10,877 bases of DNA from Thiotrichaceae bacterium (GTDB lineage Bacteria; Pseudomonadota; Gammaproteobacteria; SZUA-229): positions 2,829-13,705 of the forward strand of contig NVWZ01000047.1 in NCBI GenBank assembly GCA_002746365.1. The letters run 5' to 3'. A model generated the notes under the pieces. That model saw only the letters and a program-made list of their open reading frames with translations, did not search any database and was not told the DNA's origin. A program made the position numbers and the translations under genes. How positions within the stretch are numbered: position 1 is the stretch's first letter; every line of letters begins with the position of its first letter. Positions 1,402-10,877 of this stretch are shown here, one piece after another.

Positions 1402-2274
1402 ATGCAACCACGCCTGCCATTCAAACTTATAACCATCAGTTTATTACTACTGACGCTATCCGCCTGCTCGATGAACAAGGTGATAGTCAACATGTCTATG
1501 CCAATGATCGAAGGCGGCATTGAAGCCATGAATCAGGAACCGGATTTACAACTTGCTGAAGATTCTATGCCGGCAAACATCAGTATGCTCAATGGCATGA
1601 TTCATCTGGATCCTGAAAATGCTCAATTACATGTCTATGCGGCGCAGGCATATTACGGTTTATCCTATGGTTTTAATGAAGATACCCGTCGCCAACGCGC
1701 CGATACATTTTATTTGCGTGGATTAAAACACGGTCTAACAGCACTCGAACTGGATGGACTAAAAAATATAAAAAAACTCAGTAGCAATGAACTCGAACAA
1801 AAATTACAAAAACTAGATAAAGATGATGTCCCCGCTTTATTCTGGACTGCCAGTAACTGGGCGAAATGGATCGACCTTAACCGCGACGACCCTGCCAGCC
1901 TAATTCAGTTAGCCAAACCTACCGCTATGATGCAACGCATAATAGAACTGGATGAAACATTTTATTACGGCGGCGCCCATATGTACTTTGGTGTTTATTA
2001 TGGCGCACGTGCACCCATGTTTGGCGGTGACTTTGTAAAATCTAAACAACACTTTGATCAAGCACGCACTATTAATAACGATAAACTTTTAATTGTTGAC
2101 CTATTACAGGCACAATACCTGTCTCGCCAAATGTACGATCAGAATGATTTTCATACGCGACTCACCAAAATCATTGATGCGCCCGAAGATCTCTACCCCG
2201 AACTAACCCTGCTCAATCAAATTGCAAAACGTAAAGCCCGTTTATTACTTAAACAAGAATCAAAATGGTTTTAA
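1402..2274 (+). CDS. tatT: TatT-family lipoprotein, accessory subunit of a TRAP transporter
   Basis: This 290-residue protein has a lipoprotein signal: a basic N-terminus, a hydrophobic stretch and the lipobox LSAC with Cys22 as the lipidated residue. The mature part is alpha-helical and TPR-like. It carries segments typical of the TRAP transporter TatT component family (type member Treponema TP0956), such as PALFWTASNWAKWI at 144-157 and GGAHMYFGVYYGARAPMFGGD at 190-210. In the characterised Treponema system TatT binds the periplasmic TRAP receptor and forms a ring with hydrophobic channels, which led to the proposal that hydrophobic ligands are handed over. The next gene, the binding protein, starts inside this one with a 10-nt overlap, so the two are probably translationally coupled. 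No good Shine-Dalgarno precedes the ATG. Membrane location (inner or outer) is not decided: Ser at +2 suggests outer membrane or periplasm-facing sorting by the Lol rule. Confidence 0.88.
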   Translation: MQPRLPFKLITISLLLLTLSACSMNKVIVNMSMPMIEGGIEAMNQEPDLQLAEDSMPANISMLNGMIHLDPENAQLHVYAAQAYYGLSYGFNEDTRRQRADTFYLRGLKHGLTALELDGLKNIKKLSSNELEQKLQKLDKDDVPALFWTASNWAKWIDLNRDDPASLIQLAKPTAMMQRIIELDETFYYGGAHMYFGVYYGARAPMFGGDFVKSKQHFDQARTINNDKLLIVDLLQAQYLSRQMYDQNDFHTRLTKIIDAPEDLYPELTLLNQIAKRKARLLLKQESKWF

Positions 2275-3314
2275 CCCGTAACAGACTATCCCACTTTTTT
2301 ATTTCAGCACTATTGTTGTTATGCAGTCATTCTGCCATGGCGGAAAAAGTTTACACATTAAAATTTGCCACCTTATTACCGACCGGAACCAGCTGGACCA
2401 ATACCTTTGATAACTGGATAAAAGAAGTCGAAAGCAAAAGCCAGGGCAGATTAAAATTTAAGATGTACCCAGGTGGCATCATGGGTGACGAACCGGATGT
2501 CTTACGCAAAATTCGTAAAGGACAATTACATGGCGGCCTCTTCAGCGGTTATGGCATTGGACGCATTTACTCGCCCGCTCGCATTCTCGAACTGCCCTTT
2601 CTATTTCAAAATACTAATGAGTCGGATTATGTAAGAAAAAAATTAATGCCAGAAATTGAAGTGGGTTTTCGCGAAAGCGGTTTCGAATTAATTGGCTGGC
2701 CAGAAGTGGGCTTTATCCACTTTTTTTCCAAGCATAAAATACAATCCATCGACGATCTAAAAAACAGTCGCATTTGGTTGTGGCAGGGAGACCCACTGGG
2801 TGAAGCGCTTTTTGATGCCGCCAATATTAAACCCGTGCCACTATCCATTATTGATGTCTACTCACAATTATCAGCAAAACATGGCAGCATTGATACTGTA
2901 TATATGTCAACGTTTGGTGCAATCGCATTACAATGGTATTCAAAAGTGAATTACGCAACCCATATATCAGTCACCAATGCTATCGGCGCAGTCATTATTA
3001 GTAATGCCTTTTTCACCAAACTTCCTAAAGACCTGCAACAGCTACTTAAAGAAACCGGAGAAGTTGCCAGCACGGCAATTCGCGAACAAACACGAAAAGA
3101 AAACGCAACAAGCAAACAACTACTAATCGACAACGGTGTTGAGTTTTTATGGGATTGGGATGAAGTTAATATGGAAGAATTTATCGATATTCGAGACAAA
3201 GCCGCTGCGCATCTGATTAAAACAAACTACATCCCGAAAGATTTTTTCGAAAAAACACGCTTCCACCTTAACCAATACCGAAGCAATAGCAAAACCAGTA
3301 AACCAAAAAACTAA
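2265..3314 (+). CDS. dctP: TRAP transporter periplasmic solute-binding protein (DctP family, TatT-associated)
   Basis: This is a 349-residue extracytoplasmic receptor. Residues 1-26 form a Sec signal peptide ending AMA, with cleavage before Glu27; the Cys20 upstream is not in a lipobox. The mature start (YTLKFATLLPTGTSW, 30-44) and the segment QGRLKFKMYPGGIMGDEPDVL (60-80) are typical of the DctP fold. In sialate and C4-dicarboxylate receptors an Arg in the second lobe, within a DLKGxKIR-like segment, clamps the substrate carboxylate. Here that segment reads DDLKNSRIWLW (163-173), so the Arg position is Trp171. Loss of that residue together with a TatT partner suggests a different, perhaps hydrophobic, ligand; this is inference. 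The gene overlaps tatT by 10 nt and is followed 9 nt later by dctQ. Confidence 0.92.
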   Translation: MVLTRNRLSHFFISALLLLCSHSAMAEKVYTLKFATLLPTGTSWTNTFDNWIKEVESKSQGRLKFKMYPGGIMGDEPDVLRKIRKGQLHGGLFSGYGIGRIYSPARILELPFLFQNTNESDYVRKKLMPEIEVGFRESGFELIGWPEVGFIHFFSKHKIQSIDDLKNSRIWLWQGDPLGEALFDAANIKPVPLSIIDVYSQLSAKHGSIDTVYMSTFGAIALQWYSKVNYATHISVTNAIGAVIISNAFFTKLPKDLQQLLKETGEVASTAIREQTRKENATSKQLLIDNGVEFLWDWDEVNMEEFIDIRDKAAAHLIKTNYIPKDFFEKTRFHLNQYRSNSKTSKPKN

Positions 3315-3323
3315 TCAACGCCT

Positions 3324-3830
3324 TTGCTCTCTAAAATAAACAAGTTATTATTCACCGCAGAATCGTGGTTTGCTGCCGCCAGTCTTTTTTTATTACTGCT
3401 GCTATCCATCTTTCAAATTTTACTGCGAAACATTTTAGATTTTGGCTACCCTGAAATTGACATAATAAACCGCAATCTGCTGGTTTTATGTGGCATGGCA
3501 GGCGCTGTTCTTGCCACGTCTAATCGATCACATATAAAAACGGATGCGTTAAATTCATTATTAAGCCCAACGTTAAAAAATAAGCTAAAACTTCCACTCG
3601 CCATCTTTGCTAGTTGCGTTTGTTTATTGCTTGCCTATTATTCTGTCATCTTTGTATTAGATGAATGGACATACATACCCATCAATGAACGTTGGACCTT
3701 ACCCTTCACCCTAATTTATCCTGTCAGTTTCACGCTTATGGCCTGTCATTTTTTATTAAATGAAATGATAGACAAACCACCAGCCGACATAGCTCTCGAT
3801 AGCGATAACAAGCAACCGGGTCACGTTTAA
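3324..3830 (+). CDS. dctQ: TRAP transporter small permease subunit (DctQ family)
   Basis: This 168-residue membrane protein has four hydrophobic segments at about 15-35, 48-66, 88-112 and 126-147, the normal topology and length for DctQ. FQILLRN near 30-36 and NRSHIKTD near 67-74 match the family's usual positions after the first helix and after the second. DctQ scaffolds the large DctM subunit in the inner membrane and helps receive the loaded receptor. The start is TTG at 3324, nine bases after the dctP stop and in the same frame. There is no ATG or GTG between the stop and the first helix, so TTG is the best choice, although I see no clear Shine-Dalgarno. Translation may rely on ribosomes finishing dctP. 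dctM begins four bases after the stop. Confidence 0.88.
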   Translation: MLSKINKLLFTAESWFAAASLFLLLLLSIFQILLRNILDFGYPEIDIINRNLLVLCGMAGAVLATSNRSHIKTDALNSLLSPTLKNKLKLPLAIFASCVCLLLAYYSVIFVLDEWTYIPINERWTLPFTLIYPVSFTLMACHFLLNEMIDKPPADIALDSDNKQPGHV

Positions 3831-3834
3831 GACC

Positions 3835-5091
3835 ATGGCATTTTTCGCAACGCTTCTTATCTTACTCGCGCTCATCGGTGCACCGCTGTTCACCGTATTA
3901 GCATCCGTCGCTTTACTTGCCAGCTATACTGAAGGAATCAGTCCCGATATTCTCATTATTGAGATGAATCGATTAACCACCTCACCCAACATGGTGGCAT
4001 TACCTTTATTTATTCTTGCCGGTGTCATCATGGCAAACGGTGGCGCACCGAAAAGACTGGTTGCATTCTACCGCGCCAACTTCGGTTTTTTACCCGGTGG
4101 CATTGCGGTGGTTACATTGATTAGCTGCGCATTTTTCACCATGTTCTCAGGCGCCTCTGGCGTAACCATTCTAGCTCTCGGCGGATTGCTGTATCCCATT
4201 CTAAAAAATGAAGGCTACCCGCAAAATTTCAGTTTAGGATTATTAACCACGTCCGGCTCACTGGGGCTGCTATTTCCACCCAGCCTCGCGATAATCATCT
4301 ACAGCATCGTCGCCAAAGTCAGTATCGAAGATATGTTTTATGCCGGCCTGGTGCCAGGGCTTATACTCATTCTCATGCTGAGCATTTACAGCGCATTTAT
4401 CAGTCGAAAAAATAAGGTGAAACGCCATGCTTATGTTTTTAGTGAAGCACTAAGCACCTGTAAGCATTGCTTCTTTGACCTGTTGTTACCCTTTGGACTC
4501 GTACTCGGCATCTTTGGTGGTTTTGTTTCTTTAACAGAAGCCGCTGCCGTAACAGCGGCTTACCTGTTATTTATTGAAACCATTATCTACAAGACCTTCT
4601 CACTAAAAAAACAGGGCTTAGCGCTTTTAACCGAGGCCAGTTTATTGTTTGGCAGCTTGATTATCATTCTGCTAATCGCTCTCGGCCTAACCAATCTACT
4701 AATCGATGCGCAAATACCCACTCGCTTACTCGATTTTTTTGATCAGTTTATTGATAACAAAATTCAATTTTTAATATTGCTGAATATCTTCCTGTTATTA
4801 GTAGGCGCTCTCATGGACATTTTCTCAGCCCTGCTCGTCGTGGTGCCTTTACTGCTGCCATTGGCTGTACGTTACGATATCAGCCTCATTCATCTGGGTA
4901 TTATTTTTATTGCCAACCTTGAAATCGGTTATTCAACCCCGCCCATCGGTATTAACCTTTTCATCGCTAGCCAACGCTTCAAAAAGCCGGTCCATGTCTT
5001 ATTTAAGTCTACTATCCCATTTTTACTGATTATGCTTATCTGGTTATTAGGCATTACTTATATACCTGAATTATCGCTGTGGTGGCAATGA
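3835..5091 (+). CDS. dctM: TRAP transporter large permease subunit (DctM family)
   Basis: This 418-residue protein is almost wholly hydrophobic, with about eleven or twelve membrane segments, and is the ion-coupled transport subunit of the TRAP importer. Family landmarks are in order: ALPLFILAGVIM (55-66), FSGASGVTI (104-112), GSLGLLFPPSLAI (141-153), LTEAAAVTAAY (233-243), GALMDIFSALLVVVPLLLP (324-342) and EIGYSTPPIGINLFIAS (363-379). The two repeated elevator-type halves each carry their re-entrant hairpin motif, so the protein looks intact. Members of this family usually import substrate with sodium; no ion-specific residue can be decided by eye. It ends the tatT-dctP-dctQ-dctM operon. A weak hairpin overlaps or directly follows its stop codon. 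Confidence 0.93.
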   Translation: MAFFATLLILLALIGAPLFTVLASVALLASYTEGISPDILIIEMNRLTTSPNMVALPLFILAGVIMANGGAPKRLVAFYRANFGFLPGGIAVVTLISCAFFTMFSGASGVTILALGGLLYPILKNEGYPQNFSLGLLTTSGSLGLLFPPSLAIIIYSIVAKVSIEDMFYAGLVPGLILILMLSIYSAFISRKNKVKRHAYVFSEALSTCKHCFFDLLLPFGLVLGIFGGFVSLTEAAAVTAAYLLFIETIIYKTFSLKKQGLALLTEASLLFGSLIIILLIALGLTNLLIDAQIPTRLLDFFDQFIDNKIQFLILLNIFLLLVGALMDIFSALLVVVPLLLPLAVRYDISLIHLGIIFIANLEIGYSTPPIGINLFIASQRFKKPVHVLFKSTIPFLLIMLIWLLGITYIPELSLWWQ

Positions 5092-8597: not shown

Positions 8598-8642
8598 TAA
8601 TACCCACCCAGGAGCTTGTCATCTCAACACAAGAGCAATTTA

Positions 8643-9296
8643 ATGCACACTGATAAATACACGTCTTTAAAATCTTTAGTTATTATTATTTTTGGTCTAT
8701 TATTATACGCCTGCACCCAACCAGCCGAAGACCCAAAATCCATTGCCGATAAATACTGGCAACATTTACAAAATGGCAACACTAGCGAAGCTGAAAAATT
8801 AATCTCTACTAATAGTAAACAAGCTTTCGCTAATCACAGCAACCGAATTGCAACAATCGCACAATTAAACAACAGTGCTGCAAAAACCATTGTCAGCACA
8901 ACCATAACGACCATTAATCCAAAAACTCAATTCAGCTACACCTCAACCTTCAATACTGTTTTAGTTTTACAACAAGGAAAATGGCGAGTAGACGTAAATG
9001 AATCAACGATACCTCCTGCACTATCGGCACCAGCAGAAGAACAACTAGCCGAAAAATTATCCGAGTCGATGCAAGACAACATTGAATCCATTGATGAAGC
9101 CATGAAAGAAGGCATGCAACTATTAAACGAGGCACTACGTGATGGCTCGAAAGAAATGGGCGATTCACTCTTGCATATGATGAACGAACTCAGTGGTAAA
9201 ATGAATGAGTCTATCGACAAGATGAAAGAACGCCGTCAACGACAGCAACAACCACAGAATCAACCAGACCCTAAACAAGGCGAAGGCATGATCTAA
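8643..9296 (+). CDS. Putative lipoprotein with DUF4878-like domain and helical C-terminus
   Basis: Starting at ATG 8643 the protein has 217 residues, with signal helix and lipobox LYAC (lipidated Cys24). I prefer this start to an upstream in-frame TTG at 8616: AAGAG at 8631-8635 is spaced seven bases from the ATG, whereas the GGAG at 8611-8614 is only one base from the TTG. Residues about 30-125 ([23 protein letters not shown]...WRVDVNES) resemble the NTF2-like DUF4878 lipoprotein domain. From about 128 the sequence is a long amphipathic helix rich in Met, Glu and Lys, probably coiled coil, ending in a Gln/Pro-rich tail. The role is unknown. The stop overlaps the stop of the convergent integrase gene by four bases. 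Confidence 0.78.
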
Positions 9297-10252
9297 ACAT
9301 CAAGCGGACTTTTCACACCTCGCCCGCCTTTGTTTAGCACATGCGTGTAAATCATGGTTGTGGAAACATCTTTATGACCCAGTAATTCCTGTACCGTGCG
9401 TATATCATATCCGTTCTCAAGCAAATGGGTAGCGAATGAATGTCTCAACGTATGAGGGCTAGCTGGCTTATTTATGTTCACATGTCTAACGGCCTGTTTA
9501 ATAGCGCGCTGAATCGTTTGCGGTGACATGTGATGACGAGCTTTACGATTTGTTCTTGGATCCAACCCAACTTTTGACGAAGGGAAAACATACTGCCATC
9601 CCCACTCCCTGCACGCATTGGGATATTTTCGTTCTAACGCAAAAGGCATATAAACACATCCATACCCCTTAGTAATATCTTTATTATGTTGTGCATTAAC
9701 GCGCTCAAGATGCAGCTTTAAAGCATCAATAACCTTTTCAGGTAATACCGTCACACGATCTTTACCTCCTTTCCCTTGACGAACAACAATCTCTTTACGA
9801 TCAAAATCAATATCTTTTACACGCAAACGCAAACATTCCAACAAACGCATACCCGTCCCATACAACAGTTGCGCCACTAATCCTCTTACACCATCCAGTG
9901 AAGATAAAATTGCATTCACCTCAAAAACGGTTAATACCACTGGTAAGCGCGTAGGTTTTTTTGCCCGTGTTACATCTTCAAGCCAAGGCAAATTAACGTG
10001 TAATACTTGACGATACAAAAAAAGAATAGCATTCAAAGCCTGATTTTGAGTTGATGCAGACACATTTCGCTTAACAGCCAAATAAGTAAGAAATGCCTCA
10101 ATTTCAAGCCGCCCCATACCATTAGGATGCTTCTTATTATTAAATATAATAAAACGCTTTATCCAACTGGTGTATGACTGCTCAGTGCGAATACTATAAT
10201 GCAATGTTTTGATGCGATCACGAACTTGATCCAATAAACGAACTTCTGGCAT
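9293..10252 (-). CDS. intI: Integron integrase (IntI-type tyrosine recombinase)
   Basis: This 319-residue site-specific recombinase captures and reshuffles gene cassettes by attI x attC and attC x attC recombination. The N-terminal SAM-like core-binding domain covers about 1-90 and the catalytic domain the rest. All active-site residues are visible: Arg136 (TGMRLLE), Lys164 (GKGGKDR), His267 and Arg270 (SPHTLRHSF), His293 (LGHKD) and the nucleophile Tyr302. Residues about 193-242 ([20 protein letters not shown] followed by a [11 protein letters not shown] segment) form the extra patch that separates IntI from XerC/D and lets it bind folded attC hairpins. GGAGG at 10258-10262 lies five bases from the ATG. 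The gene points away from the attI and cassette, the usual integron arrangement. It looks intact and therefore potentially active. Confidence 0.96.
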
Positions 10253-10290
10253 AACATCCTCCTTGATGCATTTGATTTTCTGATATCCAC

Positions 10291-10306
10291 GTAGGGAATC
10301 TCCTAC
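10291..10306. other. Hairpin in the intI leader
   Basis: GTAGG (10291-10295) pairs with CCTAC (10302-10306) around a six-base loop. It would sit in the long 5' untranslated region of intI mRNA, about 40 bases before its Shine-Dalgarno. It could affect mRNA stability or bind a protein. No matching regulator is known to me. Confidence 0.4.
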
Positions 10307-10319
10307 ATGACTGTTTTCT

Positions 10320-10347
10320 TTGATAAAACCGATAAGAGGTGTATGAT
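10320..10347 (+). promoter_or_regulatory. Candidate cassette promoter Pc reading into attI and the first cassette
   Basis: TTGATA (10320-10325) and TATGAT (10342-10347) are each one base from the sigma-70 consensus and are 16 bases apart. Transcription would begin near 10354, about 35 bases before the attI crossover, and run rightward into the cassette. This is the expected place for an integron Pc. The -10 overlaps the -10 of the opposed integrase promoter almost completely. Confidence 0.5.
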
Positions 10348-10370
10348 ACTGACGTAAATAATTATGTCAA
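10343..10370 (-). promoter_or_regulatory. Candidate intI promoter (P-int)
   Basis: On the minus strand, TTGACA (10370-10365, perfect consensus) is followed after 16 bases by TATCAT (10348-10343, five of six). Transcription would start near 10336, giving an intI leader of roughly 84 nt. No LexA box (CTG-N10-CAG) overlaps it, so SOS control as in IntI1 and Vibrio is not supported. Confidence 0.6.
10350..10369. promoter_or_regulatory. Palindrome inside the intI promoter, possible operator
   Basis: TGACGTAA at 10350-10357 mirrors TTATGTCA at 10362-10369 with one G-T mismatch and a four-base centre. It fills the spacer between the -10 and -35 of the integrase promoter and covers most of the -35. 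It also overlaps the start region of the opposed cassette promoter. A protein bound here could switch both. The binder is unknown; IntI itself is one possibility. Confidence 0.4.
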
Positions 10371-10395
10371 ATAGGATACCTATTTGTAGTTATGC
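10368..10395 (+). other. Candidate attI attachment site of the integron
   Basis: A perfect eight-base inverted repeat with a three-base centre (CAAATAGG 10368-10375, CCTATTTG 10379-10386) is followed by TA and the core-like heptamer GTTATGC (10389-10395). The arrangement CCTA, six bases, GTTA resembles the L-R layout of attI1 (CCTA, seven bases, GTTA). The heptamer departs from strict GTTRRRY at one position. Its identity is supported by the exact reverse complement GCATAAC at the R'' position of the downstream attC. Crossover would fall between G10389 and T10390. Confidence 0.55.
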
Positions 10396-10479
10396 GTTTA
10401 AAAGACTAAAAGAAGTTGGTGTTTAAGGCGCAACATATTTAGTTAATTTAAACCTGACAAATAGGCGTTAATCTGTTTT

Positions 10480-10491
10480 TGGTTTATCACT
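10480..10491 (+). repeat. 12-base direct repeat TGGTTTATCACT, first copy
   Basis: TGGTTTATCACT occurs exactly at 10480-10491 and again at 10755-10766, both inside the inferred cassette. The second copy ends 11 bases before the R'' region of attC. An exact 12-mer pair in under 500 bases is unlikely by chance and suggests internal duplication or a shared binding site. Confidence 0.5.
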
Positions 10492-10594
10492 CAATCAAGC
10501 AGTATCTTCGTCAGGGGTGTTTTTAAACTTAAAGTTGCAGGTAAGCATTAAAGTTTAGACGGTTACAATAGGCAATCTTTGTCACAGCTATACT

Positions 10595-10617
10595 GGGGCA
10601 TAAATAAAGCCTGCCCC
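10595..10617 (+). other. GC-rich hairpin within the cassette
   Basis: GGGGCA (10595-10600) pairs with TGCCCC (10612-10617) around an 11-base AT-rich loop. It lies just after a TATACT -10-like box (10589-10594) whose -35 is poor, and 45 bases before the 45-codon ORF. It could be a structured leader, an attenuator or part of a small RNA. No T-run follows, so a simple terminator is less likely. Confidence 0.4.
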
Positions 10618-10661
10618 TAACTAACAACACCGCAATCACGTAAAGGAGTGCAAGTCAGATA

Positions 10662-10799
10662 ATGGTGCAAACATTAACAATGTATTCTTCTTTTGTTGCC
10701 TTCATATCAGGCATTTCTTGGTGGCAAGGTTCCAATCTGTGTTGTCATAAGGTATGGTTTATCACTATGGCTACAGCGCATAACACATATGAGCCATAA
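10662..10799 (+). CDS. Possible 45-residue cassette-encoded protein
   Basis: The ORF begins ATG GTG CAA and encodes a fairly hydrophobic peptide with a possible membrane stretch (MYSSFVAFISGISWW, residues 7-21), followed by two cysteines and a polar tail. AAGGAG (10643-10648) precedes it, but with a 13-base gap that is longer than ideal. It ends inside the attC, which is common for cassette genes. On the opposite strand a 26-codon frame (10735 down to 10655, TTG start) reads as a more ordinary hydrophilic peptide. The coding strand, if any, is therefore undecided. I recognise no family. Confidence 0.22.
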   Translation: MVQTLTMYSSFVAFISGISWWQGSNLCCHKVWFITMATAHNTYEP

Positions 10800-10877
10800 C
10801 TCTGTCAATAGGCACTAGTGTGTTTTTTCGGTTAATTAAATAACCAAAAAAGTATCAATGAGCAAAGTCGGCTACTT
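10778..10877 (+). other. Partial attC recombination site
   Basis: R'' is GCATAAC (10778-10784), the reverse complement of the attI/cassette-start heptamer at 10389. After a six- or seven-base spacer an imperfect hairpin begins. AGCC (10792-10795) pairs with GGCT (10870-10873). ACT-TG-TCA (10799-10807) pairs with 10859-10868, with one mismatch (10802) and a bulged G at 10862. TTTTTT (10823-10828) pairs with AAAAAA (10846-10851) and GGTTA (10830-10834) with TAACC (10841-10845), with C10829 bulged. Bulged bases in an otherwise paired arm are the hallmark of folded attC sites. R' should lie within roughly ten bases after the window end. Confidence 0.6.

Follow-up and report, generated by a model that had tools for sequence, protein, structure and literature searches.

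What stands at the right-hand end of this piece of a Thiotrichaceae genome, and has it stayed there with its host? The window, by which we mean the whole stretch of 10,877 nucleotides that was analyzed (C51:2829-13705 of a 56-contig assembly, here G000), ends on the right where the contig ends, and a preliminary description had placed there a chromosomal integron platform with an intact integrase gene (intI), an outward-facing attI site and the beginning of a cassette array. We read the right-hand end of the window as most probably the intI-attI end of a chromosomal integron whose intI, with its attI, was exchanged at a fixed chromosomal slot, and we assign this explanation as a whole a probability of about 0.82. 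The earlier observation was partly confirmed and its interpretation partly supported: the platform with an intact-looking integrase stood up, given its TIGR02249 match, its attI, a cassette and a fixed left neighbor.

The intI gene (9293..10252, reverse strand) encodes an intact protein of 319 amino acids (IntI) that scored 488.6 bits against the TIGR02249 integron integrase model (cut-off 265), and residues 7-317 align with PDB 2a3v (named IntI4 there) with an E-value of 5.4e-91. Residues R136, K161, H267, R270, H293, and Y302, which we take to be the tyrosine recombinase catalytic residues, are all present, and residues 212-241 hold an insert of the IntI type, presumably IntI-specific. The complete enzyme with its catalytic residues and the IntI-specific patch were thus rightly described, the specificity of the patch being an assumption of ours as well. 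In comparison with intI of a related genome (G004), the proportion of nonsynonymous differences (pN) is 0.145 and that of synonymous differences (pS) is 0.849 (saturated), as expected under selection to keep the gene. To the left, intI is convergent with a conserved lipoprotein-like open reading frame (ORF; 8616..9296, forward strand), the fixed left neighbor of the slot, which has a homolog in 12 of the 18 genus genomes. That ordinary chromosomal genes adjoin the platform is borne out for the left side.

The attI region, facing outward as had been proposed, extends over 10259..10395 (forward strand), as judged from an alignment of eight copies (A3) and from the limits of homology. It is best conserved at ~10340-10392 and ends in the core GTTATGC (10389-10395), which is one letter off GTTRRRY and at which foreign cassettes start, beside intI. 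Homology with the G004 platform and with another copy in G000 itself, on contig C48, starts immediately beyond the intI ribosome-binding site, extends to ...CCTATTTGTAGTTA and stops at GTAGTTA, whereas homology with a cassette on contig C44 (80%) begins at GTTATGC, position 10389. With homology switching there from both sides, we identify this join as the attI crossover. A consensus scan placed two candidate promoters opposing each other inside attI: a cassette promoter Pc (TTGATA-16-TATGAT; 10320..10347, forward strand, 10/12) and an intI promoter (TTGACA-16-TATCAT; 10343..10370, reverse strand, 11/12). The region also contains a palindrome, CAAATAGG-ATA-CCTATTTG (10368..10386), intact in the C48, G004, and G005_C57 copies and changed in the remaining four copies of the alignment A3.

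The two boxes of one attC must be complementary. In the segment that follows the crossover, the first gene cassette (10389..10784, forward strand), the head GTTATGC and the R'' box at the tail (GCATAAC, 10778-10784) are exact complements (7/7); over its first 171 bp the cassette shares 80% identity with C44:3758-3931. The remainder of its attC lies beyond an insertion sequence (IS) and the contig end. The longest ORF touching this cassette, of 45 amino acids, extends into the IS; cassettes without a gene, some with promoter activity, are mentioned in the available part of PMC11014356. Only this one cassette is readable before position 10877, nothing further being readable on C51 because the window edge is the contig end. 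A cassette array does start here, as described earlier, but the structure that had been cited for it is of another kind.

That structure, a hairpin at 10792-10873 taken for the arms of an attC, belongs to the end of an IS of the IS110/IS1111 family lying in the attC of the cassette (10785..10877). These 93 bases are identical to C50:12079-12171 and C54:2659-2751 and ~90% identical to a copy on C23; on C50 they form one end of an element that encodes a DEDD/IS110-type transposase (PF01548, PF02371), an element of which the window holds the end only. In the window, on C50, and on C54 the element starts directly after an attC R'' box (...TAAC), and the attC resumes beyond the C50 element (attC match 13692-13782); the C23 copy stands after CAAAAC, not a matching tail. 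The reading of the hairpin as the first attC of the array has in its favor the R'' box directly before it and a fold better than that of shuffled sequences (z -2.35; 4 of 200 shuffles as good). The IS end, however, folds about as unusually as attC sites do, which accounts for the misreading, and since identical DNA begins an IS110-type element on two other contigs and the attC model found no site on C51, we consider an attC at this place scarcely credible and rejected it. The element may fit the IS1111-attC group, named in the title of a reference, which it resembles in its IS110/IS1111-type transposase and in that three of its ends here stand immediately after an attC R'' box. A different element, with a reverse-strand ORF, lies at C44 ~450-2030 just behind an attC (351-443) and, by reading alone, looks IS110-like.

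The attC model just mentioned is a covariance model built from seven sites of this genome, with matches counted at an E-value of 0.01 or better; it returned 16 matches on eight contigs, of which seven were the training sites. The genome encodes a second IntI, on C50, 53% identical to that of the window and accompanied by its own attI core and cassettes. This integron (8402-13915) adjoins a glutamate-synthase-like gene and groEL, and it holds four complete cassettes with matching head and tail, with the IS110-type element in the fourth attC; the perfect 7/7 complementarity recurs in these four and in one cassette on C54. Matches away from both intI genes lie at C3:61944-62737, C26:12270-13568, C12:135364-135453, and C56:48522-48604. 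A home-made attC finder and a stricter version of it were given up, as a reversed-sequence control equaled the real sequence (11 versus 11 at score 12); they only suggested candidates and were replaced by the complementarity checks and the covariance model. By reading alone, small toxin-antitoxin-like pairs occur near or in cassettes at C54 2109-2658, C54 1560-1990, and C23 180-770.

We compared the locus in 58 relatives and among the 18 genomes of the genus. IntI, counted at an E-value of 1e-60 or better, was present in 26 of the 58 and in 10 of the 18. Among the 12 genomes of the genus that have the lipoprotein gene, five (G000, G004, G006, G009, and G017) carry intI convergent with it, the last codons of the two genes being 2-60 bp apart, so that the left chromosomal neighbor of intI is the same in five of 12. 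In another five (G001, G003, G005, G008, and G012) an acyltransferase gene follows the lipoprotein gene with no intI, coming only ~0.8-0.9 kb after it in G003 and G005; neither intI nor the acyltransferase gene was seen over 1.5 kb in G016, and the G010 contig breaks off. The platform is thus present or absent by species, and this comparison, which had been proposed as a check, does not speak against an integron. The acyltransferase gene was considered as the right end of the array and dismissed: its G000 copy (C41:85767-87170) is surrounded by other chromosomal genes, and no attC was found next to it.

The integrases at this slot are of different origins. The same-slot group was defined by position before any tree was made, and an approximately unbiased (AU) test rejected the five proteins as one clade (p 3.9e-47; without G009, p 4.7e-8). 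The test tree had 43 rows and kept 17 of the 79 sequences picked for similarity to the window; the long relative rows L047, L048, L049, and L052 were omitted. In the large tree (109 rows, including all 79; L050, short, and L074, a duplicate of L026, omitted), the window IntI pairs with that of G004 (support 100/97) inside a mostly beta- and gammaproteobacterial IntI clade (97/94) that is filled by this sampling for similarity to the window. The IntIs of G006 and G017 group with others from the genus (100/100), and that of G009 is placed elsewhere. Host trees join G000 with G017 (RpoB 100/99, concatenation 100/100), in conflict with the pairing of the G000 and G004 integrases; together with the non-monophyly at the slot, this means that IntI was not found to be inherited with the host. 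The proteins also differ in length: in contrast to the 319-residue window form, IntI of the sister species G017 has ~470 residues, with ~150 extra ones at the N-terminus, and IntIs of ~450-500 residues occur also in G006 (two), G007, and G009 (with G017, rows L180, L182, L190, L188, and L181), while those of G010 and G016 are cut by contig ends. The extra ~150 residues gave no Pfam match in the two proteins scanned, and our literature search turned up no publication on an N-terminal extension of an integron integrase. The sequences indicate that, within the genus, integrases from at least three lineages have occupied the slot, and because of this we favor an exchange of intI, with its attI, at the slot, possibly by recombination in the flanks.

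The attI sequence itself turned out to belong to a family. A sequence-only model built from the eight copies of A3 gave 17 matches in 10 of the 58 relatives at an E-value of 0.01; at 1e-6 it gave 15, spread over 9 of the 54 genomes of the family. Twelve copies are strong (at least 70 bits) and lie in G000, G004, G005, G012, G015, and G024; eight of them went into the model, the four outside it being G012_C122a and three copies from G024. Only two of the 12, the G000 and G004 platforms, have intI beside them, and near the others a tblastn search with four IntIs over 1.0-1.5 kb on the intI side gave nothing below an E-value of 1. One of these solo copies, on C48, is a second window-type attI in the own genome, followed by a gene and a degenerate attC (used in training the attC model). 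Four of the ten solo copies lie at a contig edge within 222 bp. Among the six assessable for tails, G005_C57 and G005_C65 have an exact tail right after the first gene or gene pair (arylsulfatase; HigBA-like pair), C48 has its degenerate attC, and the three G012 copies have no perfect tail. The 7/7 head and tail complement is found also in G004, G005_C57, and G005_C65. G005 encodes two IntIs, both of the C50 lineage, and an integrase of the window type was not found in that genome.

Homology between different attI loci ends on the cassette side within ~25 bp of the core (GTTR) and on the intI side mostly near the intI start region, the exceptions being G000/G004, two G012_C122 copies, and two G024 copies. 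When the G005_C65 locus is set against G014, homology stops at the hxlR stop codon, before attI. A contig end lies within 1 kb on the cassette side of 6 of the 12 strong copies and on the other side of 1 of the 12, with 0.84 expected, an excess such as variable or repeated cassettes would cause. In G005 C57 (1-1105), a gene that reads like an OLD-type ATPase/nuclease and a GCCTAAC box precede the solo attI, which may lie inside an older array. No publication on solo attI sites turned up; as several literature searches returned nothing or irrelevant matches, their absence in print is a weak claim.

Several results weigh against an integron with exchanged integrases. The continuation of the array to the right of 10877 was not found, no contig being shown to be its right-hand part. 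Three promoter-like sites were found in the attI region versus 2.5 expected by chance, so Pc and the intI promoter stand as candidates only. LexA-type boxes (CTGT-N8-ACAG, at most one mismatch), which are frequent in intI promoters according to the accessible text of PMC3108266, occur three times in the window and not near 10253-10400. The host trees use one to four proteins, and RpoB was not found for G006 and G009. In G012 and G024, each with three solo attI copies, the attC model found no attC, and the G012 copies lack a perfect cassette tail. The short attCs beside two G005 solo copies also escape the model, and the fold of one of these attCs is no better than that of shuffled sequences (z -0.92; 33 of 200 equally good). 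The genomes are, moreover, drafts with many contigs, the own one with 4.45% contamination, and assemblies are broken by arrays and IS, as stated in a portion of PMC9024848, so the mixed picture at the slot might come from assembly or binning errors. The same set of genes, however (dnaJ-like, 96-amino-acid ORF, lipoprotein gene, and intI, four or fewer of them), stands on one contig in five genomes, and the contig of the solo copy G005_C65 carries an hxlR gene 87% identical to that of G014, of the same genus; such errors are a highly improbable explanation. An old tandem pair of integrase genes followed by differential loss would dispense with exchange altogether, and two IntIs do coexist in G000, G005, and G006. 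Yet two intI genes together at the slot were seen in none of the genomes examined, the pair would have to predate the genus and at least two losses to have followed, and attI differs along with the integrase. We judge this origin improbable and prefer exchange.

The ~130-bp attI family might also be a dispersed promoter-like repeat, mostly not a recombination site, that came to stand before intI by chance. A gene of the same orientation does begin shortly downstream of most copies, the candidate promoters fall within reach of the conserved part and overlap it, and the G012 and G024 results just given would fit. A repeat does not agree with homology that stops so close to the GTTR core, with four copies (window, G004, G005_C57, and G005_C65) leading into a segment with 7/7 tail-head complement and C48 into a gene with a degenerate attC, or with the 6 contig ends versus 1; we find it unlikely, though worth keeping in view. 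Taken as a family of attI sites, the solo copies are either relics of platforms that lost intI or sites used by an integrase in trans. The alignment of G012_C122a with the window continues leftwards for another 17 bp and reaches the region of the ribosome-binding site and start of intI, and loss of intI is among the origins proposed, in the text seen of PMC8618304, for clusters of attC sites without intI (CALIN elements). The flanks of the other solo copies contain no intI remnant in the tblastn search, and in most pairs intI-side homology breaks off at about one position, immediately outside the ribosome-binding site of intI, a poor fit to random deletions, so we give the relic explanation an even chance. 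A genome-wide integron, in which scattered promoter-bearing attI sites are loaded in trans by integrases encoded elsewhere and intI is swapped at a fixed address, is a speculative and rather doubtful extension.

In the preferred reading, a promoter within attI would drive the leftward expression of intI, cassette circles would enter by recombination at the attI core (10389), and cassettes would be read rightwards from the opposed Pc. The first cassette, which has no convincing gene and whose attC is split by an IS110/IS1111-type element apparently aimed at attC R'' boxes, is probably no longer excisable by IntI. Over time the integrases of the slot would have been replaced, each intI together with its attI, and this attI would be one member of a site family scattered over genomes, mostly without an adjoining intI.

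With the sedentary chromosomal integrons of Vibrio and Xanthomonas the platform shares intI, attI, cassettes, a fixed neighbor gene, and opposed transcription of intI and cassettes; it differs in having no LexA-type box found near intI, in its small, broken-up arrays on several contigs, and in its IS-split first cassette with no convincing gene. Sedentary integrons are also marked by large arrays, of more than 10-20 cassettes; C51 ends after one cassette. The ilvD-intI locus of Xanthomonas arboricola, where the neighbor is conserved and intI is of other origin (97.1% versus 68.2% average nucleotide identity, in the section of PMC12444791 at hand), offers an earlier example of an altered intI next to a gene that stayed the same; here at least three IntI lineages of two length classes share one slot, between sister species. 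The solo copies resemble CALIN elements in carrying cassettes with no intI nearby, but keep a recognizable attI. For CALIN elements, off-target insertion, intI loss, and rearrangement have been proposed (PMC8618304, same text). Attachment sites other than those of class 1 are poorly known and missed by IntegronFinder, according to the part seen of PMC9024848. Delta-attI-type cassettes of mobile integrons likewise have attI sequence away from the intI-attI junction, mostly as pieces of 14-18 nt that follow an ORF in integrons of classes 1 and 2 (PMC12901181, as far as its text was available), whereas the copies here are ~130 bp long, chromosomal, and in front of an ORF.

The platform itself is ordinary and real; as a variant it deserves further attention for two features, the probable replacement of integrases at a single address and the attI family that occurs without intI. 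A slot with several integrase lineages implies that integrons called sedentary need not retain their integrase. Integron surveys target intI and attC and do not look for attI sites other than those of class 1; a recognizable attI family lets intI-free platforms be found, and makes it testable whether integrase-less cassette clusters stem from intI loss or are live docking sites served in trans.

Elsewhere in the window, a tRNA search found none and an Rfam search gave no match. A TRAP-type transporter set is present at 2265-5091, with the DctP family confirmed for 2265-3314 and the other two genes assigned by reading alone.

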